DNA of 64,000 nucleotides from Bacteroidales bacterium (GTDB taxonomy: Bacteria > Bacteroidota > Bacteroidia > Bacteroidales > VadinHA17). Positions 9,608-38,859 of this stretch are shown piece after piece; the stretch's first letter is position 1; every line of letters starts with the position of its first letter. The notes beneath the pieces are model-generated. The model searched no databases. It was not told the DNA's origin and saw only the letters and a program-made list of their open reading frames with translations. The translations under genes were made by a program, and so were the position numbers. The stretch lies in assembly GCA_003157015.1 (NCBI GenBank), contig PMIJ01000025.1, forward strand, positions 1-64,000, written 5' to 3'.

Positions 9608-9690
9608 TATTACCCCCATCCCGACCTTCCCCCACGGGGGACGGAGACAAATTAAACCATCCCGCTTAGGCGGGACAGGAAAGGGGGTAA
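9608..9690. repeat. GC-rich intergenic palindromic repeat
   Basis: Between leuS and the M23 gene. It contains C/G-run palindromes (CCTTCCCCCACGGGGGACGG; CCCGCTTAGGCGGG) and near-complementary ends (TTACCCCC at the left, AAAGGGGGTAA at the right). The style matches the short interspersed repeats around 38.0-38.8 kb, 41.5 kb and 42.9 kb. It may fold as a hairpin and act as terminator for leuS. Confidence 0.6.
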
Positions 9691-14039: not shown

Positions 14040-14149
14040 TGCCTTTTGTTTTATCTATAAGTGAGTGAAACAGCAAATCCCGGATTTCTCCAGGACTTGT
14101 CTCGCTGTATGGTGGATGTGCTTTTCATAGCACCGACCGAGTTAGCTTT
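14040..14149 (-). repeat. attC-like site A (3' of TIR cassette)
   Basis: Minus strand: R'' = AAAGCTAAC (14149-14141), then TCGGTC and the small hairpin GTGCTATGAAAAGCAC shared in type with sites B and D. The AAAGCTAAC end is complementary to the first bases of the TIR cassette (GTTAGCTTT at 15354-15346), the rule for integron cassettes. The far R' half is degenerate, so this is the end of the array. Confidence 0.6.
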
Positions 14150-14156
14150 ATTTCTA

Positions 14157-15293
14157 TTAAATATTTTTTAATTTTCTTAAACTATCTATTTGAGTTTCTT
14201 CTTCATGTAGTCTCATTTCGAAATTTAAAGGCCAATCCCTTTTAGAACGCATCCTTATTTTTTGGAACTCTTGGTCTGTTAAATCTTTTGGTTTTCCCAT
14301 TTTCAACTTTTTTATAGCTGCACTTTGACTTTCAATATAATGTAATCTCATTTCATAATCATCAGGCCATTCTATTTCGCTTTGAATTTTAGTGATCTTT
14401 TCAGCATCCGCATATTCATCAGTATCATTTATAATTTCCACTTTAGGAATATTTTCAGTATAAGTTATTATTTTTTTAAGTTTTTCAATATCTGAGATAT
14501 AACCTGACGGATTTTCTGGTTCAAGACTCAATGTTTCTCCTAAATCGTGAAGAAATTGAAGCATGTCAGAAGAATCTACTGCAGATAATGCATTTATATT
14601 TTTAATTGGACCATTTAATAAAGCTGCTCCAGCTTTGTCGCAAATAAGCGGAATTAAAGGTAAATTAGCTCCCCATCTTGCACCTAATTCAAATAGAACA
14701 TAAGTTGAACTAAAACTTTCTCTTGTTAAAAGTCCAATGAATGCTTTTGAGGTAAAAATTTCTTTTTTGATTTCATCATCAGTGGTTGCCCCGGCTTTTA
14801 GTTTATATCCTGGAACACTGGTACATCGAATTCTTTCACTTGGAATATTGAAAGCTTTTCTTACTATTTCAATAAGAAGTCTAGCTATTTCTGCATCCGA
14901 GCTGCTATGACTAATAAATATATCTATGTCATTATTCATTGATGTATGTTTTAGAGGCTCAACTAAATAACCATAACCGCCTTTAATAAATTCCTTTGTA
15001 ACATCTTCACCTCCTTGCCTCAGTGCTTCAGGTGGAAGGAACTCAGTTCCAAAATAGGTTTTAAATAAACCGCTAGCTCTTGCGAGTCTAACGAATTCTT
15101 CAAATCTATCTGGATTTTGGAAGGTAAAAATCCTAATTTCAAACAATCGTGACATCCAATATTTTTTCCCTCCAATAAAAAAGTCTTCTTTCCCATAATT
15201 AAAAGCATCAATAACTATTTGTAAATCATCTTTTTCAATATTCAGGATATTGTAAATGTTTGAGCGTGCTTTGATAAATACATTGTAAGTCAT
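14157..15293 (-). CDS. TIR-domain protein with C-terminal WP-EMRL repeats
   Basis: A 378-aa protein. Residues about 1-120 have no recognised domain. Residues about 125-265 form a TIR domain: DIDIFISHSSSDAEIARLL, a central strand/loop, and FELGARWG with the Glu expected for NAD-cleaving TIRs. The tail carries two copies of a unit W-P-x(2)-[YF]-E-M-R-L-H-x(2)-E-x-Q, near 312-340 and 350-378. Bacterial TIR proteins usually consume NAD or make cyclic-ADP-ribose signals in phage defence. Here the gene is alone in its cassette, so it may be activated directly by its N-terminal domain. A self-contained abortive-infection effector is inferred. Confidence 0.8.
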   Translation of the reverse strand: MTYNVFIKARSNIYNILNIEKDDLQIVIDAFNYGKEDFFIGGKKYWMSRLFEIRIFTFQNPDRFEEFVRLARASGLFKTYFGTEFLPPEALRQGGEDVTKEFIKGGYGYLVEPLKHTSMNNDIDIFISHSSSDAEIARLLIEIVRKAFNIPSERIRCTSVPGYKLKAGATTDDEIKKEIFTSKAFIGLLTRESFSSTYVLFELGARWGANLPLIPLICDKAGAALLNGPIKNINALSAVDSSDMLQFLHDLGETLSLEPENPSGYISDIEKLKKIITYTENIPKVEIINDTDEYADAEKITKIQSEIEWPDDYEMRLHYIESQSAAIKKLKMGKPKDLTDQEFQKIRMRSKRDWPLNFEMRLHEEETQIDSLRKLKNI

Positions 15294-15347
15294 ATTAATG
15301 ATGAGTTAGTTATTTATCTAAAGTTTGATTTGTACGGGACGAATTAA

Positions 15348-15486
15348 AGCTAACGGGAGTCTGTCTAATAACATATATCGATTTTTCATATAAACCAAAT
15401 TTAACGATTTCTTTTTACTCCGACGGTTTGGTGAGTTAGTTTCCGTGTCAGGGCTATGCTTTTCATAGCATTGTCCGAGTTAGGCG
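15348..15486 (-). repeat. attC-like site B
   Basis: About 139 bp, imperfectly palindromic. Minus strand begins GCCTAACTCGG (R''), has GCTATGAAAAGCATAGC, and ends TTATTAGACAGACTCCCG-TTAGC (R'). R'' and R' match the integron boxes RYYYAAC and GTTRRRY (G-TTAGCT with one off-consensus base). It separates the 71-aa ORF from the TIR cassette. Confidence 0.7.
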
Positions 15487-15517
15487 TTCGTATTTTAGTC
15501 CGGATAGGAAACCAAAA

Positions 15518-15733
15518 CTATGGATGGTGAAGTATTGGGGTAGTTCTTGTTATAGTATGTCCACCAGCTGAAACATTTGAAGTTATTGTCCTGATTGCTG
15601 ATTGTCTAAATGTTATATCGATTGTATAACCTTTATCAGCATGGACATCACACAGATAACCTACTGTATTCGGAGCCCAAATAGCGCTTGTATTAGGACG
15701 CCTGCAACGAATACTAATATTATTATCTGGCAT
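15518..15733 (-). CDS. Possible small hypothetical protein (71 aa)
   Basis: Not recognised. It has a plausible ATG and a composition (CRRP, WAPNTVGYLCDVH, GYTIDITFR) like a folded beta-rich domain with two cysteines and a histidine that could hold a metal. No membrane segment. It lies just 5' of attC site B on the array strand, the place of a cassette gene or of the last gene of the restriction cassette. A chance ORF cannot be excluded. Confidence 0.35.
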   Translation of the reverse strand: MPDNNISIRCRRPNTSAIWAPNTVGYLCDVHADKGYTIDITFRQSAIRTITSNVSAGGHTITRTTPILHHP

Positions 15734-15786
15734 TATTGGTGCAATTAGGGATTAAACATTGTGGCATAGTATTTTAATTTAATTGG

Positions 15787-16524
15787 TCATGCTTTATTTT
15801 CGGAATTGAATCGTACCAACTTTGCCCAATCAATTTCCCCATTGTCTTTACAAAATTCATTGGAAAACTCTTTGGTAAACATATTTATCATTCTGGAGTA
15901 GGATTGGATAAACTCATCATTTCTTTCTTTAGCTTTGTGACCCAGAGGTTCAATTATTTTAATATATAATTCAGGATCACCGGAAATAAACTCCCAAAAC
16001 CTTTGCCCGCAATATTTAAAGTATTCTCCCTTGTCGGGGTTATTGTCTCTTCCATAGCAACAGCCATTTACAGCTACAACATTTAACTGTGAATTACTGG
16101 TCCTTAAAGTTTTCTTTGCTGTTCTAAAATCCGTAAGTAGTTTACCAATTTGACTACTATTGCCCCAATTTGGCCCAGATTTAATGGTTAAAATGTATCG
16201 TATATTTTCCTTATCAAATTCAAGATCAATCCCTGGAATTCCAGATTTACGACCATCATAGACTTTACTGTTTATAAAAATTGCTAAGCCTTCAAGCCAA
16301 TCGCCAAAAATCGTTTCTTCTTGAGATGAAATAAATGCATCTGTCAGGCTCTTAATAATCTCCTGTGCAGTAAGTACATATTTAGCTTTAAAGAGATAGG
16401 GATTTTTTTTACTTAGTACCCTTTTTAATTTTAGATCGTTTAATCCAGCAATTCGTTTTTGATGAAAAGTTCCAATGTTTTCTTCAACGTACAGAGACAC
16501 GTCTTTGAGGTTCAGTTTTTTCAT
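15787..16524 (-). CDS. Type II restriction endonuclease (PmeII-like)
   Basis: A 245-aa restriction enzyme partner of the upstream methylase. Blocks recall PmeII-family enzymes: KNPYLFKAK, TIFGDWLEGLAIFI, and the PD-(D/E)xK-like core GIDLEFDKENIRYILTIKSGPNWGNSSQ, where Asp in GIDLEF and Lys in TIKSG are the likely metal/catalytic residues. VVAVNGCCYG is another conserved strand. Its start lies 41 bases inside the methylase gene, in another frame, which may delay or couple restriction to methylation. The family name is from memory and the recognition site cannot be read from sequence. Confidence 0.75.
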   Translation of the reverse strand: MKKLNLKDVSLYVEENIGTFHQKRIAGLNDLKLKRVLSKKNPYLFKAKYVLTAQEIIKSLTDAFISSQEETIFGDWLEGLAIFINSKVYDGRKSGIPGIDLEFDKENIRYILTIKSGPNWGNSSQIGKLLTDFRTAKKTLRTSNSQLNVVAVNGCCYGRDNNPDKGEYFKYCGQRFWEFISGDPELYIKIIEPLGHKAKERNDEFIQSYSRMINMFTKEFSNEFCKDNGEIDWAKLVRFNSENKA

Positions 16525-17362
16525 ATTTTACTTTAGGTTCAATTAAATAGAGTTCAACCGGGTTAAGTTGATTTTTTACCATGTTAAAATATTCAGGGAG
16601 AATTTCAATACCGATTGAGTTTCTCTTCAAACGATTTGCAACGGTTAAGGTGGTTCCAGAACCCATAAATGGATCAAGCACACAATCATTCTCCTTTGTA
16701 AAAAGTTTTATGAACCATTCTGGTAATTCTTCTGGAAATGCAGCACTATGATTTTTATTATTGCACTCTGTTGCTAAATGTAAAACATTACTTGGATAAG
16801 CTTTGTCTCTGTCAATCCAGTTTGAAATATTTTTGCCAAAACCACTGCCAACTTTTGAATTATCACGAATCTTGTCAGTATCAGAAAGTTTCTTTAAACG
16901 AGTTTTTGCCCAATCCCCCATTGGTACCATAACTTCTTTTTGGTACATATTGAAGTGTTTATCCTTATTGAATTGCAAAAGTCTTTCCCATGAATCTCGA
17001 AACCGATTAGGCCATTTGCCTGGATAAGAGTTTTTCTTGTGCCATATAAACTCCTCTGTCCACAACCATCCTTGCTTCCTCATGGCAATTATAAGTTCCA
17101 TAACATATGTACTTCGTTCACCATCAACAACTTTTTCCTTAATATTTAGTATGAAGGTACCAGTTGGTTTTAACACTCTTAATATTTGTTCGGATATAGG
17201 AAGAAACCATTCAACATATTTATCATGGGTAATACCACCATAAGTACTTTTTCGCTGGTCTGCGTATGGAGGAGACGTTACAATTAGGTCAACAGTATTA
17301 TCCTTAATTTTCTTAAGTTCCTTTTTGCTGTCTCCTAAATATAAGTCAGTTGTAATTTTCAT
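16484..17362 (-). CDS. Type II DNA methyltransferase (beta class, N4-C/N6-A)
   Basis: A 292-aa SAM-dependent methylase protecting host sites from the adjacent endonuclease. Motif IV TSPPY (favours N4-cytosine, also seen in N6-adenine enzymes) lies near residue 30. Motif I DPFMGSGTT lies near residue 240, i.e. IV before I, the beta order. A variable target-recognition region lies between (about 95-215). The whole gene reads as one transcription unit with the endonuclease and follows attC-like site C, so the R-M system travels as a cassette. Confidence 0.88.
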   Translation of the reverse strand: MKITTDLYLGDSKKELKKIKDNTVDLIVTSPPYADQRKSTYGGITHDKYVEWFLPISEQILRVLKPTGTFILNIKEKVVDGERSTYVMELIIAMRKQGWLWTEEFIWHKKNSYPGKWPNRFRDSWERLLQFNKDKHFNMYQKEVMVPMGDWAKTRLKKLSDTDKIRDNSKVGSGFGKNISNWIDRDKAYPSNVLHLATECNNKNHSAAFPEELPEWFIKLFTKENDCVLDPFMGSGTTLTVANRLKRNSIGIEILPEYFNMVKNQLNPVELYLIEPKVKYEKTEPQRRVSVR

Positions 17363-17419
17363 TTTTTAATTGTCGTCTAGAGTACAAATTTAGCCTTTTT
17401 AGTGTGAAATTTTAATGAT

Positions 17420-17590
17420 GTTTATAACTAAAAAATCTCCTTGTCCAAGTTTAATATTTTGGCGTACTTCTAAGTATTGTTGCTGGTTTGGTTTTTGCAA
17501 AGTCCCGATAGGTGGACAAGCATATAGTGTCACGATGAAGTTGTCCAGGCTGATGAAGGCAATTAAGCAAAATATCCGTGTTATGGGTTG
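17420..17590 (-). repeat. attC-like site C (3' of glycosyltransferase cassette)
   Basis: Minus strand starts CAACAACCCATAAC (R''), ACGGATATTTTGC, then TTAATTGCC and TGCTTGTCC/GGACAAG-type arms, and ends GTTATAAAC (R'). Its R'' is complementary over 14 bases, with one mismatch, to the first bases of the glycosyltransferase cassette (18922 downward, GTTATGGGTTATTG). Confidence 0.65.
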
Positions 17591-17601
17591 TTGTTTTCTA
17601 T

Positions 17602-18879
17602 TTATTTATTATTCATATATTTATTAATGATATCAATTGCTTTGTCAATACCATTTTCTGTTCTCATTGATTGTCCCAACTGATTTGCAGCATTTACAAT
17701 TTTGGGTTGTAGTGCAAACATAATTGCTTTGCTTAAATTTTCAGCAGACAGACTCTTTTTTGATATGGGTTTTGATCCAACGCCCAGTTCATAAACTCTC
17801 AGTCCCCATCCAGGTTGGTCCGCAATATGAGGTATTATTATTGTTGGTTTACCGGCAATGAGTCCGGCAGCTGTTGTTCCTGCACCACCATGATGAACAA
17901 CCAGTTTCATTTGAGGAAATAACCAGGAGAATGGAATATTTTCTATTAAAAATATATTGTCAGGCATAGTTCCGCTAAAACTATTTTTTGTCCACCCCAA
18001 ACCTATCACAGCCCGTTGTTTTGCTTTAGTTACTGCTTTTGAAATTATTTCAAATGTTTTTGTGAATGAATTAATATCTTTCATACTTCCAAAACCAATA
18101 AAAATGGGAGGTTCACCATTTCTAATAAAATCTTCGAGTTCATTAGGTGGTATAAAATTAGATTCGTTTTCAATAATCAAACTGCCAACTGTTTGTATAT
18201 TATTAGCCCATTCCTGAGACGGTTGAAAGGTCAAAGGACTGTATGCGTTAATTACTGGTCCTCCGCTTTTAATCTGTTGTTGTATAGGAGATGTTTTGAA
18301 ATCGACTTTAGTTTGGACATTTTCTGTCCAGAATTCTACGATTGCTGACTTTGCCAGTGCCCAAAACACTTTATAGAATATGATATGAGTTAATGAATTA
18401 TAAGCTCTGCCCAATCTTGGTAAAGAATAAAAAAGTATGGATGGATAGTCTTTGGTAGCAACTACCGGAAACGGATTTAATAAAACACTTTTTTTATTGT
18501 TAACTTGTGCAATGAAATATCCGATTGGCATTCCCGGATGAAAAACAATAAGATCTGCATCCTGACAAGCATTCCATATTTCCCTCTGCGTCTTAATCAT
18601 AAGGGTTTTCAGATTCTTAGATCCTTTTAAATGGCTAATTATAAATTTAAATGGATTGCTGGCTTTTGCGAATTCCTGAACATCGTTGTTCCCTTCCATT
18701 AATTCTTGAATGTTTACATCGAGTGCGTAGAAATTTAGTCCATAACTTCTTACAAAGTCTTCTTCGTTTTTAGGTGAAATAATCAAAACTTCATATCCAG
18801 CTTTTTTCAGACCAAGTCCAAGTGATATAAAAGGCTGCAAATCACCTCTTGAACCAACTGTTGTAATTGCTATTTTCAT
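17602..18879 (-). CDS. UGT-type glycosyltransferase (GT1, sterol/macrolide type)
   Basis: A 425-aa nucleotide-sugar-dependent transferase of the GT1 fold. N-terminal acceptor half begins ITTVGSRGDLQPFISLGLGL. The C-terminal donor half has the GT1 signature in VHHGGAGTTAAGLIAGKPTIIIPHIADQPGWG with the catalytic-site region QPGWGLRVYE. It resembles glycosyltransferases that decorate lipids, sterols or antibiotics, so it could inactivate a toxic compound, or glycosylate a surface lipid. It is the only gene of its cassette, framed by site D upstream and site C downstream. Confidence 0.85.
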   Translation of the reverse strand: MKIAITTVGSRGDLQPFISLGLGLKKAGYEVLIISPKNEEDFVRSYGLNFYALDVNIQELMEGNNDVQEFAKASNPFKFIISHLKGSKNLKTLMIKTQREIWNACQDADLIVFHPGMPIGYFIAQVNNKKSVLLNPFPVVATKDYPSILFYSLPRLGRAYNSLTHIIFYKVFWALAKSAIVEFWTENVQTKVDFKTSPIQQQIKSGGPVINAYSPLTFQPSQEWANNIQTVGSLIIENESNFIPPNELEDFIRNGEPPIFIGFGSMKDINSFTKTFEIISKAVTKAKQRAVIGLGWTKNSFSGTMPDNIFLIENIPFSWLFPQMKLVVHHGGAGTTAAGLIAGKPTIIIPHIADQPGWGLRVYELGVGSKPISKKSLSAENLSKAIMFALQPKIVNAANQLGQSMRTENGIDKAIDIINKYMNNK

Positions 18880-18908
18880 ATTACTTGTTTTTTTCTTTTT
18901 CTTTTTTA

Positions 18909-19022
18909 CAATAACCCATAACTAAATAGGGTGTGATACACAGTCTTATAACTACTTGCCATTAAAGGTAGGTATAAAACAGGATTGATTATTCTGATTG
19001 TTGAAATATCCGGCTTTATTGA
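18909..19022 (-). repeat. attC-like site D, 3' (R') half
   Basis: Minus strand contains GTTATAAGACTGTGTATCACACC, TATTTAGTTATGGGTTATTG. GTTATGGGT is R' and starts the glycosyltransferase cassette. The same TTATAAGACTGTGTAT block is found at site G. The R'' half is separated from it by a methylase-type gene remnant. Confidence 0.5.
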
Positions 19023-19202
19023 ACAGCCTTATCCGGGTTAAAAATTTTCATTGGTGTTTATCAGCCGGCACAAAAATGGCTGAAAGACCGGAAAGGCAGC
19101 GTACTATCCTTCGAAGATATTCAGCATTACCAAAAGATCATTGTTGCGCTTACAGAGACTGACCGATTGATGAAAGAGATTGATAAGATTGAGATTGTAT
19201 AG
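19023..19202 (+). pseudogene. C-terminal remnant of a type ISP/adenine-methylase restriction enzyme
   Basis: A frame with no start reads QPAQKWLKDRKG, then LSFEDIQHYQKIIVALTETDRLM and stops at 19202. This is the usual C-terminal end of type ISP restriction-modification proteins. Only the last 50-60 codons remain, on the plus strand, opposite to the cassette genes. It is the scar of a lost large R-M gene, and probably lies inside what was one attC region. Confidence 0.65.
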
Positions 19203-19206
19203 TGAA

Positions 19207-19250
19207 CGATGGAAGGCAATGCTTTTCATAGCATTGTCCGTATTATGTTT
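19207..19250 (-). repeat. attC-like site D, 5' (R'') half
   Basis: Minus strand AACATAATACGGACAATGCTATGAAAAGCATTGCC. It matches site B past its R'' box (CGGACAATGCTATGAAAAGCATAGCC). R'' itself is weakly conserved. It lies about 160 bases after the DUF262 gene and belongs to that cassette. Confidence 0.5.
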
Positions 19251-19408
19251 AGTTCAATTTTAAAATAATCTTACTTTAACGAATTTGTCTTGTTTTGTGA
19301 AATTTTCAGTTCAAAATCCAGATAGAAAAGTTGAAGTAGTCAAGTCAAACTAAATTTAATAAGCAACCTGTCCAGATAAATGAAAGGAGCTTATCGAAGT
19401 TAGATTAA

Positions 19409-21325
19409 TCAAAAATCTTTGATATAAGGTCTTAATGCCTTTTCAAACCTAATTAACCGTTCAACTAGATCATCATGGATTATTGCCCAATTTTCCTCAT
19501 TATCGAATCCACCAAACGGGCAGAGAGATTTAATATAATGCTGTTTGCGAATTTCTTTGAAATCCCAAATTAATAAATCCCCAAAGGTTTCTTCGATTTC
19601 CTTCTTCTTGGAAACTAGATATTCAAATCTTTTTCTGTTGATTTCAGGAGAAAGGGTGCAAAAGATAAAATCTATACGTGATTCTTTCTTCATACTTACA
19701 ATTCCCCACAATATACCTGACTTGCCAGCTCCTGCATTAATCCAGTTTTGATATCCTACAGGTGATACACTTCTAAATAGGTTAGTCTTTTGATTACATA
19801 ATGAGAGGAACTGCTCAAAGAATTTATATCTATTTTGATCATTCTTAGTAAGCCCTGTCATTAACTTTGAGACCACTGGCTGGTTTTCTGTTTCATTCTC
19901 TTCTATACTGTCACCCTCTTTAAAAGAAATTCCGGTTTGTTTACCTTTTAAGTCTTGCTCATTTGCATTTATCTCAATTCTTGGTCTAGCATTGTTACAG
20001 AAACGATGTGCCAACCGTGCATTTTCTGGAATTGTTTTACCTCCGGTCCAATACTGTTTTATATGATCAACTGCAGCATCATCAATATTTAAGATTCTAT
20101 TTCCACATATTGCACAAGTGTTGTTAATCTCAAATAGCTCTTTCTTAAGTGCATATGTAAAACATCTTGGTTCTTTTATCCCAATGCCAAGAATTGCTTG
20201 TAATGCAAAACGCCATTTGTCAAATCGAATAGTTACTGCTTTTTTGCTACTTGTTGAAAGTTCTATCGAGTCTATGAATTCTTGATCAACGGTCATTAAA
20301 TCAATTAAAGCTTCTCGAATTCTATCGAGGTTTTGTAAAACGATACTCTTATCCTCCTTCGCAAATGAATACATTAAAATGTCATAAAGAGAAACATTAA
20401 ATTTTTGAGTTTCCCATTTACCAGCTAGATTTTTTTCATCACCTCGATAATATCTTTTGAAGGCTTTCCTATCCAATAATGACAGAATAATGTTCACAGT
20501 ATTTTTAAATGCAGTTCTCAGATTTGACTCATCACCATATGTGATGTTCTGATACTTTTCCATTGTATCATTCAAGAATTTTTTAATAGGTGCATTGTAA
20601 TTTAGATACGTGTTAAAATGAAATGCAGCAAAACGTAAAACAAGTTCTCTGTCCTTCATTCTTTTGTCGGGTCTTGCAATGCCTAACAAATATTTAAAAT
20701 CATTATCTTGGGATAATTCCTTTAAGATATCGTTAAACCTCCCTCTAAAAACGCAATTTCTTAATTCCTGATCATTTAGTGCAACGGATCCTGTATTTAG
20801 CCTTGTAAAAATTTCAAATTGTAAATCACCATCCGATTCTTTTTTGAATTTTATAACTCTGATTTTATACGTAATGATTTTATCCTGCAACTCTTCAGAA
20901 AGTTGATTAAACTTTATTCCATTGAGTTCAGTAAAAACATTTAAGCCAGATAATTTAAATTCTGAATGGTCGGGAAATCTGCCGTCAATGAAGGAAAAGA
21001 ATGCAGTCAATCTTTGTTGACCATCAATTACGTTTTCTTTACCGTCTTTGTCTTCTGATAAATACACTATTGGAATAGGAATGTCTAAAAGTGCTGATTC
21101 AATTAGGCGGCTACTTTTTACTTTATCCCAAACGAATTGTCTTTGGAAGTTCGGTTGAATATTTAGTCGACCTTTTAAGAAACGTTTGTACAATGATTCG
21201 ACCTCAGGGTCACCCTGTTCTGTATAAATTTTTCGTTCTCCGGATAAATCGTCTTGCTCCTCTTGATCTTTATCATTATCAAGTTTAATTTCTTCATCAA
21301 CAATGTCCTTCAGATTTTCTTGCAT
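19409..21325 (-). CDS. DUF262 (ParB-like nuclease) and HNH protein
   Basis: A 638-aa protein of the GmrSD-related group. N-terminal DUF262 domain has QRQFVWDKVKSSRLIESALL and IDGQQRLTAFFSF, the classic (I/V)DGQQR nucleotide/DNA-processing motif. The second part has a zinc-finger HNH nuclease: CAICGNRI, DHIKQYWTGG, LAHRFCNNARP. The C-terminal 150 residues (about 500-638) are not recognised. GmrSD-like proteins cleave modified phage DNA; this one may protect against phages with altered bases. It is alone in its cassette, with unusually long spacing on both sides. Confidence 0.82.
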   Translation of the reverse strand: MQENLKDIVDEEIKLDNDKDQEEQDDLSGERKIYTEQGDPEVESLYKRFLKGRLNIQPNFQRQFVWDKVKSSRLIESALLDIPIPIVYLSEDKDGKENVIDGQQRLTAFFSFIDGRFPDHSEFKLSGLNVFTELNGIKFNQLSEELQDKIITYKIRVIKFKKESDGDLQFEIFTRLNTGSVALNDQELRNCVFRGRFNDILKELSQDNDFKYLLGIARPDKRMKDRELVLRFAAFHFNTYLNYNAPIKKFLNDTMEKYQNITYGDESNLRTAFKNTVNIILSLLDRKAFKRYYRGDEKNLAGKWETQKFNVSLYDILMYSFAKEDKSIVLQNLDRIREALIDLMTVDQEFIDSIELSTSSKKAVTIRFDKWRFALQAILGIGIKEPRCFTYALKKELFEINNTCAICGNRILNIDDAAVDHIKQYWTGGKTIPENARLAHRFCNNARPRIEINANEQDLKGKQTGISFKEGDSIEENETENQPVVSKLMTGLTKNDQNRYKFFEQFLSLCNQKTNLFRSVSPVGYQNWINAGAGKSGILWGIVSMKKESRIDFIFCTLSPEINRKRFEYLVSKKKEIEETFGDLLIWDFKEIRKQHYIKSLCPFGGFDNEENWAIIHDDLVERLIRFEKALRPYIKDF

Positions 21326-21479
21326 AAATTATGTTTTATGGGTAATATTTGTAAAAATACAAATAATTGGATTTAAGTAAGATATAGATGTCTTTTGGTT
21401 TTAATAAATCCAGTAAAAGATTCTGGGATTGTCTCATCATACGAAAACTGTCAAGGTAAAAGACCTGATAAATCAGCAG

Positions 21480-21637
21480 TAGTTGTCTAGGCCAAATAAT
21501 TCTGTTTTATCGCGGCATTTAGTTTGTTGCGGTCCGTGTCAGGGTTGACATGCGTTTTTGCAAAGTTTTGATGGATAAGACACAAAAGCAAAAACCGTGA
21601 CAAGCAACTTACCTTTAGCATTGTCCGTGTTAGCTTT
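21480..21637 (-). repeat. attC-like site E (3' of hydrolase cassette)
   Basis: Minus strand: GCACTAAAGCTAACACGGACAATGC (R''), TTGCTTGTCACGG arm, then CCCTGACACGGACCGCAAC arm, which together form an imperfect hairpin. R'' is complementary over 14 bases, one mismatch, to the first bases of the 418-aa hydrolase cassette (22949 downward). The R' end is not clear. Confidence 0.6.
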
Positions 21638-21641
21638 AGTG

Positions 21642-22898
21642 CTATTCTATCCATCGATATGATTCACAGTTTCTTATAATATTTGCGAAAAGAATGTCTT
21701 GTTTCCCATATTTTAAGAATGCAATCAATAATTTATTATAAAATCCCCCGTTTTTAAGCGAGATGAATGTATGGTTATCATTGGCTATGAACAAATAATG
21801 GTTCCTGTAAATTGAGGCTAACGCTATCTGGGACCTATAGTCAGCAGTATGATCCCATCTGCCGCTTAGAATAAAAACATCGGTTTCTAGGAGATGTAAA
21901 TGATCAAGGTTAATCTGAATTGGCTTGATTTGATTTTTGTTAAAAACTTCTATCAATTGTAAAGAACTGAAATATAGGTTCTCAATATCAGGTCGTAATT
22001 TGTAAGTCTCAATCTTAAAGCTCTTTAATAAGGGGAGGAGAAACTCAAATAATCTGACTTTTATTGGGATTCCATCGGGAGAATCATAAAAGGAAAGGAT
22101 GTCTTTAATCTGGTATTTTGCTTTATAGTCATTTATTGAAGCAGTATCATTCATTAGTAGCAGGTTTAGCAGTTTGTTTCTTTCATAGACAAGACTGTCA
22201 GGCTTCACAAAGAAGTTTTGTCTCTGGAAAAGCATAGCTATCAAATCTCTGGAGAAGTAATTTTTATTGATGAGTTGAGAAAATCTGATTGAGAAAGTGG
22301 AATCCTGATCACAGGTCTCTTCCCAGAATTTGTCATGATTAATCCCCGATTCGCTATCAAGATAGTAATTAACAGCGGCACCAGTAAAAGCCTTGTCAAC
22401 AAATTTACCATAAACACTTAAATATTGATGTACAAGTAATCCGCCTCCGGATTGTCCATAAAGATTGATTCTTCCGTTCCTTCCTAAAAGTTTTTTTCTT
22501 ATAGCATCAATGTCATTTACATATTGTTGCCAGGTGAAAATATTATAAGCATTAGTCCAGTTTATATTTCCCTTGTCATCAATTACTGAATTTTTCAGGT
22601 CATCATTATTATTGCGTCCAATAATTCCGACGACATTGAAAGTGCTGTCAAAGAGTGAGTTCTGTAGTTGTTTTACAGAACCTTTTCTCACATAGAATTG
22701 TTGAGCATCAGCAATAATAAAAACTGTTGGCTTTTTTGCTGAAAAAATAGCTCCTAATTCATAATAGATTGTTGTGAGTCCCAATTTTGGATTTGAATAG
22801 TCAATTGGTACCTTCAGTACATAATCAAGTAATGAATCTGTTTGTCCAATAGTTGTTTGAGTAAGAATTAGCAAGCTTAGAAAAAGAAAATATCTCAT
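21642..22898 (-). CDS. Secreted alpha/beta hydrolase (S33 peptidase-like)
   Basis: A 418-aa exported protein. Signal peptide at residues 1-19 (FLFLSLLILTQTTIGQ). The fold is recognised by VPIDYSNP near the start, the nucleophile elbow NLYGQSGGGLLVHQYL, an Asp in SGRWDHTADYR and a His in NDNHTFI. The general form is that of tripeptidyl-aminopeptidase-like hydrolases. It is the single gene of its cassette (sites F and E). Substrate is unknown; a peptide or ester hydrolase acting in the periplasm is plausible. Confidence 0.7.
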   Translation of the reverse strand: MRYFLFLSLLILTQTTIGQTDSLLDYVLKVPIDYSNPKLGLTTIYYELGAIFSAKKPTVFIIADAQQFYVRKGSVKQLQNSLFDSTFNVVGIIGRNNNDDLKNSVIDDKGNINWTNAYNIFTWQQYVNDIDAIRKKLLGRNGRINLYGQSGGGLLVHQYLSVYGKFVDKAFTGAAVNYYLDSESGINHDKFWEETCDQDSTFSIRFSQLINKNYFSRDLIAMLFQRQNFFVKPDSLVYERNKLLNLLLMNDTASINDYKAKYQIKDILSFYDSPDGIPIKVRLFEFLLPLLKSFKIETYKLRPDIENLYFSSLQLIEVFNKNQIKPIQINLDHLHLLETDVFILSGRWDHTADYRSQIALASIYRNHYLFIANDNHTFISLKNGGFYNKLLIAFLKYGKQDILFANIIRNCESYRWIE

Positions 22899-22942
22899 AG
22901 TATATTATTTGGTTAAAGATAGAAAGTATTGCGATGCATTAA

Positions 22943-23188
22943 AGCTAACGGCAGTCTGTCTAATAACTAAGTTGAATGCTTCTTATCCTTGTGTACCTAT
23001 CCGAACAATTAATCAAATAATTGATTCTGGGAGACTTAATTTTAGTTATTAGACAGTCTGACGGCCCGGCGGTTTAATGAGTTGGCATGCGTTTTTTGCA
23101 AAGTCCCGGTAAGTGGATGAGCGTTTGGTGTCACGATGAAGTATCCAGGGCTGACAAAGGCAATTAATTAAACCATCAGAGTTAGGCT
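22943..23188 (-). repeat. attC-like site F (longest, 246 bp)
   Basis: Minus strand begins GCCTAACTCTGATGGTTTAAT (R'') and ends TTATTAGACAGACTGCCGTTAGC (R'), as in site B. Two nested inverted repeats lie inside: GGTTTAAT/ATTAAACC, and TTAGTTATTAGACAG against CTGTCTAATAACTAA. It also shares GCAAAGTCCCG-type arm text with sites C and E. Confidence 0.7.
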
Positions 23189-23203
23189 TAGTGTTTTTTT
23201 GGT

Positions 23204-24022
23204 TCATTCTGTGATTAAGTTAAAACTATCTTTTTTAAGACACATTTTATAAATCTTAGCTCCTGGTAATTGTTCTAGGCATATTGATCTTATTTTGCTT
23301 TCGTTTTTAGATTCAGTGCTGGAACCTACGTAAACGCTACTTATTGTCTCCTTCGTAATCGGGATATAAATTTGTTTTGTGGAATCTAGAGTTAAATTAG
23401 TTAGGACTATTCTAATTTCTTTTTCATAGCTCCAACAATCTGATTTAAATCTGTACCAATTACCTATGGCTTCTTTTGGATTTCTGAAATAATCTGTTCG
23501 TATGAATTTGTTGTTATATTTTACTTTTACTAAGGCTGGATAGTAGCTCTTAATGGCTAAATACAATTTTCTAAGATTGAATCCTATGCATACTCCTTTG
23601 TGAGAGCCTGAATAATGAGACCACATTAACATGTTGTCAAATTCTTCACTGAAACAAGAAATTGCAATTTTTGAAAGCTCATTTGAAAATCCTATGTCCC
23701 GAAAAGAACTTACAACTTCATTGTCAGATGAATTTTGTACACGTTTGATTATTTCAGGACTTAGAAAAGGACGATATTTTTCTATATAGTATTGACGAAA
23801 ATTGTCTGGAACAGATTCAAAGTTAATCAAGTTAGGGTAACAATCATATGGATCATTAAATAGTGAAGGATTTTTAAATGCTAAACTCGAATTTGAAACC
23901 ATAGATTCAAAACTCTCCACTCGAGTATATTTATATAATATTGGAACATTTTTATCTATATAATTCAGTTCCTCTCTTTTTTCATCATCGAACATAGCAA
24001 TATTTGATTTTGTGCAGGTCAT
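23204..24022 (-). CDS. DUF2971 protein
   Basis: A 272-aa cytoplasmic protein of the DUF2971 family, seen by LYKYTRVESFESMV, LAFKNPSLFNDPYDC, MLMWSHYSGSHKGVCIGFN and CWSYEKEIRIVL. Function is not known; family members often sit in defence-gene neighbourhoods and integron arrays. ATG 24022 is the first start, ATG 23998 an alternative. It is the single gene between sites F and G. Confidence 0.8.
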   Translation of the reverse strand: MTCTKSNIAMFDDEKREELNYIDKNVPILYKYTRVESFESMVSNSSLAFKNPSLFNDPYDCYPNLINFESVPDNFRQYYIEKYRPFLSPEIIKRVQNSSDNEVVSSFRDIGFSNELSKIAISCFSEEFDNMLMWSHYSGSHKGVCIGFNLRKLYLAIKSYYPALVKVKYNNKFIRTDYFRNPKEAIGNWYRFKSDCWSYEKEIRIVLTNLTLDSTKQIYIPITKETISSVYVGSSTESKNESKIRSICLEQLPGAKIYKMCLKKDSFNLITE

Positions 24023-24024
24023 TG

Positions 24025-24090
24025 GCTATAACTAAATAGCGTTTTATACACAGTCTTATAACAGCTTTCCCAATACTCCTTTTGTTCCTG
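24025..24090 (-). repeat. attC-like site G, R' part
   Basis: Minus strand GTTATAAGACTGTGTATAAAACGCTATTTAGTTATAGCCAATG. It shares TTATAAGACTGTGTAT and TATTTAGTTAT with site D. GTTATAGCC is the R' end and begins the DUF2971 cassette. No clear R'' half is seen upstream; the preceding gene (MG2/plug protein) may be outside the array. Confidence 0.5.
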
Positions 24091-37927: not shown

Positions 37928-38137
37928 TAAAATAATTTTTGACTATCAGTAATAAGATGTTAAAAACAAAATAATATTGATTTTATAATATTAATTTCCA
38001 GGTACTTCCATTTTATTTCATTAAACCCCCTTTCCCGTTTCCCCAAAAGGGAAAATGCTTTACATGGTGCTCCTTCCCCCGGGAGGGAAGGCCGTCAACT
38101 TAAGGTTTGGGGATGAATGAGATACTGCATAAAAAAG

Positions 38138-38223
38138 TTTCCCCTCCTTTTGAAGGAGGGGTGGTCGGGACGATTTATTATCTTATATATACAGTATTTA
38201 TTTCCCGACCGGGGTGGTTGATT
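38138..38223 (+). repeat. Inner inverted repeat, left arm
   Basis: Contains the perfect hairpin CCCCTCCTTTTGAAGGAGGGG, then GTGGTCGGGA ... CCCGACCGGGGTGGTTG. It is the inverted counterpart of 38568-38649. Confidence 0.75.
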
Positions 38224-38250
38224 CATTGAATTCTTCTTACCTTTATTGGT

Positions 38251-38565
38251 ATGAAAAACCAAAACCTCTTTAACAGGAAAAGCCTTAAATTCTTCAGATC
38301 ATCACTTAGGAACAAGTCCACTTCTGCTGAGGCTGTGTTATGGAACATTTTGAAATCAAAAAAACTTAATGCAAGAAAATTCAGAAGACAACACAGTATA
38401 GGTAACTACATAGCTGACTTTTTTTGTGTTTCAGAAAAACTTGTAATTGAGCTTGATGGAAATCCGCATGGTGAATATCATAAAATAGAAAAAGATAAAA
38501 AAAGAGATCAATATCTTGAAGACCCAGGATTCTCAATCAAAAGAAAAGATCTGGAATATGAATAA
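38251..38565 (+). CDS. DUF559 (Vsr-fold) nuclease, C-terminally shortened
   Basis: A 104-aa protein of the DUF559 family of PD-(D/E)xK-fold nucleases. NKSTSAEAVLWNILKSKKL, FRRQHSIGNYIADFFCVSEKLVIELDGNPH and KRDQYLE match. The family ends with a further stretch of about 20-25 residues (normally LRFxNxEV...); here the frame runs into KRKDLEYE and stops, so a frameshift or deletion shortened it. It lies inside the inverted-repeat element and no other gene is nearby. It may process the flanking palindromes, but activity is doubtful in this copy. Confidence 0.75.
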   Translation: MKNQNLFNRKSLKFFRSSLRNKSTSAEAVLWNILKSKKLNARKFRRQHSIGNYIADFFCVSEKLVIELDGNPHGEYHKIEKDKKRDQYLEDPGFSIKRKDLEYE

Positions 38566-38567
38566 AC

Positions 38568-38649
38568 AATCAACCACCCCGGCCGGTATGAGCATTTGTA
38601 TCATAATTATAAAGTGGTCCGGCCACCCCTCCTTCAAAAGGAGGGGAAA
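38568..38649 (-). repeat. Inner inverted repeat, right arm
   Basis: Begins AATCAACCACCCCGGCCGG and ends CCACCCCTCCTTCAAAAGGAGGGGAAA. Reverse complement of the left arm with internal divergence. Confidence 0.75.
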
Positions 38650-38859
38650 TGTATCAGGCTTAATTTTAATATTTTACATTCTGTTTTGTACTAAACTCTC
38701 TCCATATTTTACTATATTCAACTCCTTAGGTTGACGGCTATGCCCCGTGGAGGAAGTCCCGATAGCTATCGGGAGGGAAGGGGGTCATAAATAATTAAGC
38801 ATTTATTGTTTTATTCATGATTGCCGATACTTATATAATAATTTAATTAAATCATATGT

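Follow-up and report, generated by a model that had tools for sequence, protein, structure and literature searches.

A decayed DUF559 nuclease gene between inverted hairpin arms, carried in an IS231-type cassette of a Bacteroidales genome

We describe two layers of different origin at positions 38087-38742 of a 64,000-nucleotide stretch of a Bacteroidales genome (the whole stretch is called the window below): an outer layer of IS231-type ends, and an inner layer made up of a DUF559 nuclease gene and the hairpin arms that flank it. Our preferred reading, to which we give a probability of about 0.62, is that DUF559 genes and their own C-rich hairpin arms together form a unit that behaves like a REP/RAYT system or like a free-standing homing gene, and that an IS231-type cassette surrounds the copy in the window. 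A sequence-only reading of this DNA had proposed a small mobile unit in which a DUF559 nuclease mobilizes palindromic repeats. The unit itself is real and far wider than the window, since DUF559 genes are associated with such arms far beyond control levels and the two empty sites that could be read are free of arms; the outer repeats are a separate, IS231-type layer. A broader proposal goes further, namely that DUF559 genes with cognate C-rich arms are ancient, cross-phylum selfish elements whose nuclease spreads its own gene and gene-free doublets in Bacteroidota, Cyanobacteria, Proteobacteria and Deinococcota, including in frame in essential genes. This we hold tentatively, at slightly worse than even odds.

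Results

The unit in the window

The left inner arm (38138-38223, plus strand) contains a hairpin with a 9-bp stem and a TTG loop (38141-38161) and a second stem, formed by 38163-38170 with 38203-38210, and then runs into GGGGTGGTTGATT. The right inner arm (38568-38649, minus strand) is an inverted copy of the left one, with its hairpin at 38626-38646, and both arms carry the GGGGTGGTTGATT edge. At 86 and 82 nt the arms are close to the 85 bp first estimated for them, and their local inverted-repeat score is 35; at comparable loci, a score of at least 14 is reached by one of 247 control ORFs and three of 444 random positions. Both arms also fold better than all 200 of their shuffles (z -4.0 and -4.4). 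The element CCCCTCCTTTTGAAGGAGGGG, originally described as a perfect 21-base palindrome, is really a perfect 9-bp stem with a 3-nt loop, and is 86% identical to its own reverse complement. Neither GTAG nor CTAC occurs in either arm.

The DUF559 nuclease gene (38251-38565, plus strand, 104 aa) lies between these arms and is the sole domain-bearing gene between the outer ends (PF04480, E 1.3e-25), in agreement with the earlier description; its Vsr/EDxHD fold is assigned through a model of its relative L064. The gene is decayed at its C terminus. Compared by eye with L064, the closest relative aligned, it is short of about 23 residues towards the C terminus, and an R-F pair conserved almost without exception in an alignment of 41 sequences (A3) is among those lost; 'truncated' was therefore the correct word for it. 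A PADLOC search gave weak partial matches only.

The left outer end, GAAGGCCGTCAACTTAAG (38087-38104, plus strand), has three mismatches to the consensus CATAGCCGTCAACTTAAG, its first bases, within CAT(A), being degenerate, and the right outer end, CTTAGGTTGACGGCTATG (38725-38742, minus strand), has one. The cores of the two, GCCGTCAACTTAAG (38091-38104) and CTTAGGTTGACGGC (38725-38738), are the outer inverted pair already noticed in the sequence-only reading. The segment 38087-38742 is a dead, non-autonomous mobile insertion cassette of the IS231 type (IS4 family), about 656 bp long, with DUF559 and its hairpin arms as cargo.

The outer layer

The outer GCCGTCAAC ends are those of IS231-type (IS4-family) insertion sequences. 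The consensus end CATAGCCGTCAACTTAAG fits the published IS231 pattern CAT-------AA--TAA exactly; for this subgroup, the available part of PMC2266710 gives the end pattern CAT-------AA--TAA--- and target duplications of 10-12 bp. Ends with at most one mismatch to CATAGCCGTCAACTTAAG were found in 15 of 60 genomes, all of one genus and including the window's own, with 14 in the own genome and up to 54 in one other (G012), against one match in total for the reversed-pattern control over the 60 genomes. The own genome also holds 12 exact CGTCAACTTAAG sites, several of which end at contig borders, as repeats do. When 33 distinct units of 100-1012 bp were examined for target duplications, the flanking 10-mers matched at no fewer than eight of ten positions in 21 of them, against 4% of random pairings. 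The window copy is counted among the 21 but passes (8/10) through shifted C/G-rich 10-mers, and a clean duplication is absent from it; L008 has a perfect 10-bp duplication. A direct empty site for the window copy was sought via the downstream hydrolase in 36 genomes, and none was found (own genome aside, there was one distant match). At locus L285 of the sister genome G020, 70 bp separate a matching end from an IS4-family transposase gene (NF033592 at 163 bits, above the cut-off of 115); a second outer end was not found in the locus. Taken together, the defined ends, the duplications of about 10 bp, the several size classes and the IS4-family transposase in a sister genome show, at the level of sequence, that the outer layer has moved, and IS231-type ends can move a cassette through a DDE transposase. 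Also at L285, an ORF beside the IS4-type transposase resembles a tyrosine recombinase by eye and may have interrupted the element.

Smaller units bear on what the outer layer needs. Some units of G012, about 318 bp long, retain the two ends and the two arms with a spacer of just 43-45 bp. In all 12 of these units the best alignment of the spacer falls in one and the same part of the DUF559 gene; it beats all 200 shuffles in eight, and in the other four it is not significant alone. These alignments show that the short units are internal-deletion derivatives of a nuclease-bearing copy, and the 12 are probably one amplified event. They moved in trans, which is the classical MITE situation, and DUF559 was not needed in cis; since they were amplified without the nuclease, DUF559 is a passenger as far as the outer layer is concerned. 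Four units of 134-136 bp, each from G012, may represent either deletion products or empty sites for the inner unit. Furthermore, L232, L239, L245, L249 and L250 have outer ends and no arms, and L248 has another hairpin, showing that outer ends also move in the absence of the inner unit. The unit L231:1501-2512 shares these IS231-type ends, is flanked by a perfect duplication of 10 bp, and contains an IS200-type Y1 transposase between palindromes and no DUF559.

Could DUF559 be a mere passenger altogether, in an ordinary IS231-type cassette whose C-rich hairpins are cargo-bound terminators or insulators? The outer ends, target duplications and IS4 transposase do account for the movement of the window's family, the amplified derivatives lack the nuclease, and in L231 a cassette of the same kind bears an IS200-type transposase in place of DUF559. 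However, among the 76 DUF559 domains of the own and related genomes, outer ends lie within 500 bp of seven (on both sides in five) and of none of the other 69. The arms are therefore independent of the outer layer, and the outer repeats had to be dropped from the nuclease unit of which they were first thought to be part. The arms also track the nuclease clade, and in LeuRS and Deinococcus they came in together with the gene, as described below. We consider the passenger explanation quite unlikely.

DUF559 genes between hairpin arms

The own genome (G000; 5.2 Mb in 238 contigs) contains eight DUF559 genes. All eight stand between C-rich hairpin arms by eye and five score at least 14; at the remaining three the arms are diverged or overlap a gene. 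One element is present twice, as the window copy (L007) and as L008; a second element, with other arms and a DUF559 of another clade between the same outer ends, is likewise found in two copies, L003 and L004.

We then have a wider sample of 213 non-identical domains, in which identical DUF559 cores were counted once and hits of less than 30 bits or with less than 150 bp of flank were dropped. C/G-rich hairpins are present on both sides of 119 of these domains, against 29 of 994 control ORFs (Fisher p 3e-76). By source, the figures are 59 of 76 for the own genome and its relatives, 26 of 65 for genome contigs, 6 of 16 for named genomes, 9 of 12 for plasmids and 19 of 44 for viral contigs. The other 94 domains have no detectable hairpin on one or both sides, and hairpins are missing on both sides of 24 of the 44 viral-contig and 11 of the 65 genome-contig domains; these are genuine misses. 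By eye, other arm types have C/G tracts beside a hairpin.

Inverted-repeat scores of at least 14 were found at 45 of 80 DUF559 domain hits in the own and related genomes, to be compared with the one of 247 ORFs and three of 444 random positions given above; a few loci enter these 80 twice (L009/L068, L026/L053) or as two fragments (L057, L073). The same score was reached at 44 of 78 DUF559 loci in a scan of named genomes (5 of 337 controls) and at 17 of 49 viral-contig loci. On plasmids, sampled as 12 of 43 matching records with two E. coli records added later, nine of 12 loci reached it with plausible arms: Novosphingobium, Sphingobium, Sinorhizobium, Sphingomonas, Pseudanabaena, Picosynechococcus, two from Deinococcus, and Neisseria gonorrhoeae, the last being weak (16.0, one of its copies lying in direct order). 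The plasmids of Synechocystis (12.5) and Photobacterium (8.0) fell below the threshold, and an Azospirillum plasmid at 14.0 was rejected as a chance match in coding DNA. Examples of DUF559 between arms come from Bacteroidota, Cyanobacteria, Alphaproteobacteria and Deinococcota, in samples that were all chosen by the presence of DUF559. One Sphingomonas plasmid has its DUF559 unit between sufB and sufC (L407:1471-1881).

It could be argued that DUF559 is a VSP-type mismatch-repair gene and that C-rich intergenic repeats are its neighbours by chance. The Vsr fold would fit, as would the genetics of Caulobacter VsrA, a DUF559-domain protein interpreted from them as a mismatch-repair enzyme (PMC12907096, text available in part). 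The enrichment of flanking hairpins at the p-value given above, the co-variation of arms with nuclease clade and the many copies per genome (eight in the own genome) make this explanation very improbable.

Arms follow the nuclease

Over 69 units, arm similarity tracks protein identity, and none of 500 permutations reached the observed correlation. The correlation persists in comparisons across units, between one unit's upstream arm and the reverse-complemented downstream arm of a second unit, and the frequency of such cross-arm matches falls from 63% among pairs with 60-80% protein identity to 3.7% at 30-40%. From these comparisons, the arm sequence is seen to follow the nuclease clade, arms and nuclease being matched. 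The dN/dS ratios of DUF559 (median 0.14, maximum 0.28, 55 pairs) show purifying selection on the nuclease.

Gene-free arms also occur. At 9611-9689 of the window, two C-rich hairpin arms form an inverted pair (ACCCCC...GGGGGTA) with no gene between them. By eye this pair is of the type that flanks L001, another DUF559 gene of the same genome; it folds moderately better than its shuffles (z -1.9, with 8 of 200 shuffles as good). It was one of four further repeat sites listed in the sequence-only reading, and the only one to stand in full: 42.9 kb has a weak imperfect palindrome by eye, and by eye no palindromic repeat was seen at 41.5 or 49.7 kb. A count of tagged-hairpin pairs at short range over 596 kb, made up of the window plus 40 stretches that surround DUF559 loci, gave nine inward (L-R), two L-L, three R-R and no R-L pairs. 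A 407-kb portion of the own genome yielded 17 tagged hairpins (three shuffled versions gave 3, 0 and 0) and three short-range L-R doublets, of which the 9.6-kb pair is one; the definition of a tagged hairpin overlooks type II arms, such as those of the window unit itself. The type I 16-mer was found in 18 of 38 DUF559-positive and 2 of 22 DUF559-negative genomes, a comparison confounded by relatedness, and these counts are suggestive of a tie between arms and the presence of DUF559. One of the two negative genomes with the 16-mer, G006, has 12 type I arms and DUF559 was undetected in it, perhaps through incompleteness (81%) or gene loss. Given these two genomes, arms can outlive the gene or do without it.

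Other repeats and a transposase fragment are present in the window. One 10-kb stretch (14119-24070) contains diverged direct repeats, among them a 40-nt TGCTTTTCATAGCA family in four copies and other repeats of 43-106 nt in pairs, and a partial DDE_Tnp_1 match lies at 1008-1289 within a 441-aa frame.

Insertion sites and their uninserted counterparts

Some DUF559 units lie in frame within protein genes (L012, L027, L345, L359, L349, L338 and L364): three in LeuRS, and others in MetH, HsdR and MmeI/Eco57I-like enzymes. Their arms encode peptides such as SPSPTGRGARGEG. A conserved LeuRS loop has 16-18 residues in 14 of 15 uninserted genomes, all of other families, and 34 in one; in G054 and G037 it has 153 and 175 residues, being made of arms and DUF559 in frame. 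The uninserted loops are without arms at the DNA level in 10 of the 15 genomes; in the other five, where the motif missed the second anchor, the loop was taken by eye from the protein. A solved LeuRS has five residues where the query has 142. A third such LeuRS, from Pedobacter fastidiosus, brings the total to three insertions at one loop in three genomes. Their DUF559 domains are 48-55% identical to one another, an identity compatible with either common descent or independent entry, and the insertion took the place of the host loop without a clean duplication. Similarly, a stretch of 10 residues in uninserted MetH is 158 residues long in Pedobacter chinensis, and one of 30 residues in HsdR is 234 long in Phormidium. 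The comparison with uninserted homologues covered LeuRS, MetH and HsdR; the two cases in MmeI/Eco57I-like enzymes are L338 and L364.

In Deinococcus NW-56, a 511-bp stretch with arms separates hpaE from the next gene, whereas in D. proteolyticus the same hpa gene pair overlaps by four bases and the unit is found at another operon junction. In these two readable cases, LeuRS and the Deinococcus hpa operon, the arms were not there beforehand. Both show that the inner unit entered naive sites as arms and gene together.

The nuclease fold

The AlphaFold2 model of L064 (pLDDT 90.8, pTM 0.83) matched NGO0050 with Z 16.1, the homing endonuclease I-Bth0305I with Z 11.7 (rmsd 2.5 over 93 residues) and Vsr with Z 10.3; the match to TnsA was weak (Z 7.0). 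The predicted DUF559 fold is thus like those of I-Bth0305I and Vsr. Four residues (E22, D51, D64, H68) do not vary across alignment A3, and two more (E62, D77) hardly do; we take the letters of the EDxHD motif to stand for some of these residues. The DUF559 family has itself been assigned to the EDxHD homing family (PMC9403480, in the text available).

This assignment, the fold shared with I-Bth0305I and the insertions into proteins (three at one LeuRS loop, with others in MetH, HsdR and MmeI/Eco57I-like enzymes) are what a free-standing homing gene would lead one to expect. On that account DUF559 would cut arm-less alleles and be copied in by homologous repair, and its arms would be flanks harmless to the host, which preserve open reading frames or terminate transcription. 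Allelic homing leaves the many unrelated intergenic sites and the gene-free doublets elsewhere unexplained, and we judge this account rather unlikely.

Comparison with Y1 transposases

Y1 transposases are known movers of REPs, and those of the IS200/RAYT type served as a positive control. In seven genomes of the genus (L414-L434), 14 of 18 such genes had inverted flanks scoring at least 14, with flanks of 300 bp instead of 220 bp and with 3 of 21 loci dropped for short flanks. C/G-rich hairpins stand on both sides of one of the 18 Y1 genes, against 59 of the 76 DUF559 domains; three Y1 genes (L427-L429) have C-rich hairpins, of their own kind, on one side or both. Going by these flanks, Y1 and DUF559 genes share an architecture and have mostly different arms. 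Y1 genes are present in five of the seven genomes; G020 and G035 gave no Y1 match, though they have 10 and 8 DUF559 matches, and G035 has seven type I arms.

These results bear on the idea that an HUH (Y1) transposase moves the arms in trans and DUF559 is irrelevant. In its favour are the sister cassette L231 with its Y1 transposase, the occurrence of Y1 in five of the seven genomes and the three of 18 Y1 genes beside C-rich hairpins of their own kind; because the samples were chosen by DUF559, how often Y1 genes stand between such arms is not derivable from them. The rarity of both-side C/G-rich hairpins at Y1 genes, the two genomes with DUF559 and no Y1 match, one of them with type I arms, and the absence of GTAG from the window arms leave this idea with hardly any credibility. 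By these tests the inner class is not a REP/RAYT system: it has no HUH enzyme (L231 excepted) and no GTAG.

Discussion

In the mechanism that we favour, the DUF559 nuclease would recognize its own arms, probably folded into hairpins or as a pair of half-sites in double-stranded DNA, and would nick or cut beside them, after which repair or replication would copy the unit, or a bare doublet, to new sites. DUF559 would then be to C-rich doublets what RAYT is to REPs, or what a homing endonuclease is to its own gene, and IS231 ends would give some DUF559 units a second, borrowed means of movement. On this view the nuclease would drive the movement of gene-bearing and gene-free doublets alike, and the DUF559 family is a good candidate for the spreader of common, unexplained hairpin repeats.

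Mobile insertion cassettes (MICs) carry passenger genes, and the outer layer is of this known kind, an IS231-type cassette. It shares the CAT-------AA--TAA ends and the duplications of about 10 bp with the IS231 subgroup and its MITEs and MIC231 (PMC2266710, available in part), and with MIC231-type cassettes it shares a passenger gene and an absent transposase that is presumably supplied in trans. It differs from IS231 and MIC231 in its Bacteroidota host, in having DUF559 as the passenger and in the inner hairpin arms that belong to this passenger.

The inner layer has several relatives in design. Like REP/REPIN systems with their RAYT (the REPtron), it consists of a small gene between inverted palindromic repeats, with gene-free short inverted doublets elsewhere (features of REPs taken from the accessible part of PMC3733652), but the enzyme is a Vsr-fold nuclease rather than an HUH tyrosine transposase, and the tag is a C-tract rather than GTAG. 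With EDxHD homing endonucleases such as I-Bth0305I it has in common the fold and the entry into conserved genes; unlike them, DUF559 occurs at many non-allelic sites and with cognate inverted arms. The Vsr (VSP repair) endonuclease is also similar in fold (Z 10.3), and to our knowledge Rickettsia palindromic elements (RPEs) carry no nuclease gene. As inserts, RPEs are palindromic and are tolerated in frame in protein genes (PMC3733652, same partial text), and Caulobacter VsrA has been reported with a DUF559 domain (PMC12907096, as far as its text was available). In contrast to Vsr and VsrA, the DUF559 genes described here are multi-copy, flanked by arms and located inside mobile units.

In the literature searched, made up mostly of journal articles free of subscription, no report was found of an association between DUF559 and hairpin arms, and no paper that has DUF559 together with 'inverted repeat'. 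The words nuclease and RAYT are absent from the portion of PMC12306157 examined. The lack of a dedicated transposase is stated for one large class, at least, of palindromic repeats in bacteria (PMC3733652, again in part).

If the broader proposal is true, it would add a second REP-like system, built on unrelated chemistry. Our preferred reading would supply a testable candidate mover for palindromic repeats, bearing in mind that the transposase-less class in the consulted part of PMC3733652 may differ from the C-rich arms. The LeuRS and MetH cases show how such genes tolerate an in-frame nuclease cassette. Finally, the reading would offer a candidate function for DUF559, a family of uncertain role that includes ycjD of E. 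coli. This gene, annotated as a DUF559 member, gives a further view of presence and absence: 3359 of 5426 E. coli genomes carry at least 80% of the query locus. Three strains without ycjD have other genes (annotated as efflux) after sapF, in the sapF-fabI loci L408-L413, so that these alleles are not clean empty sites; ycjD is polymorphic in E. coli.
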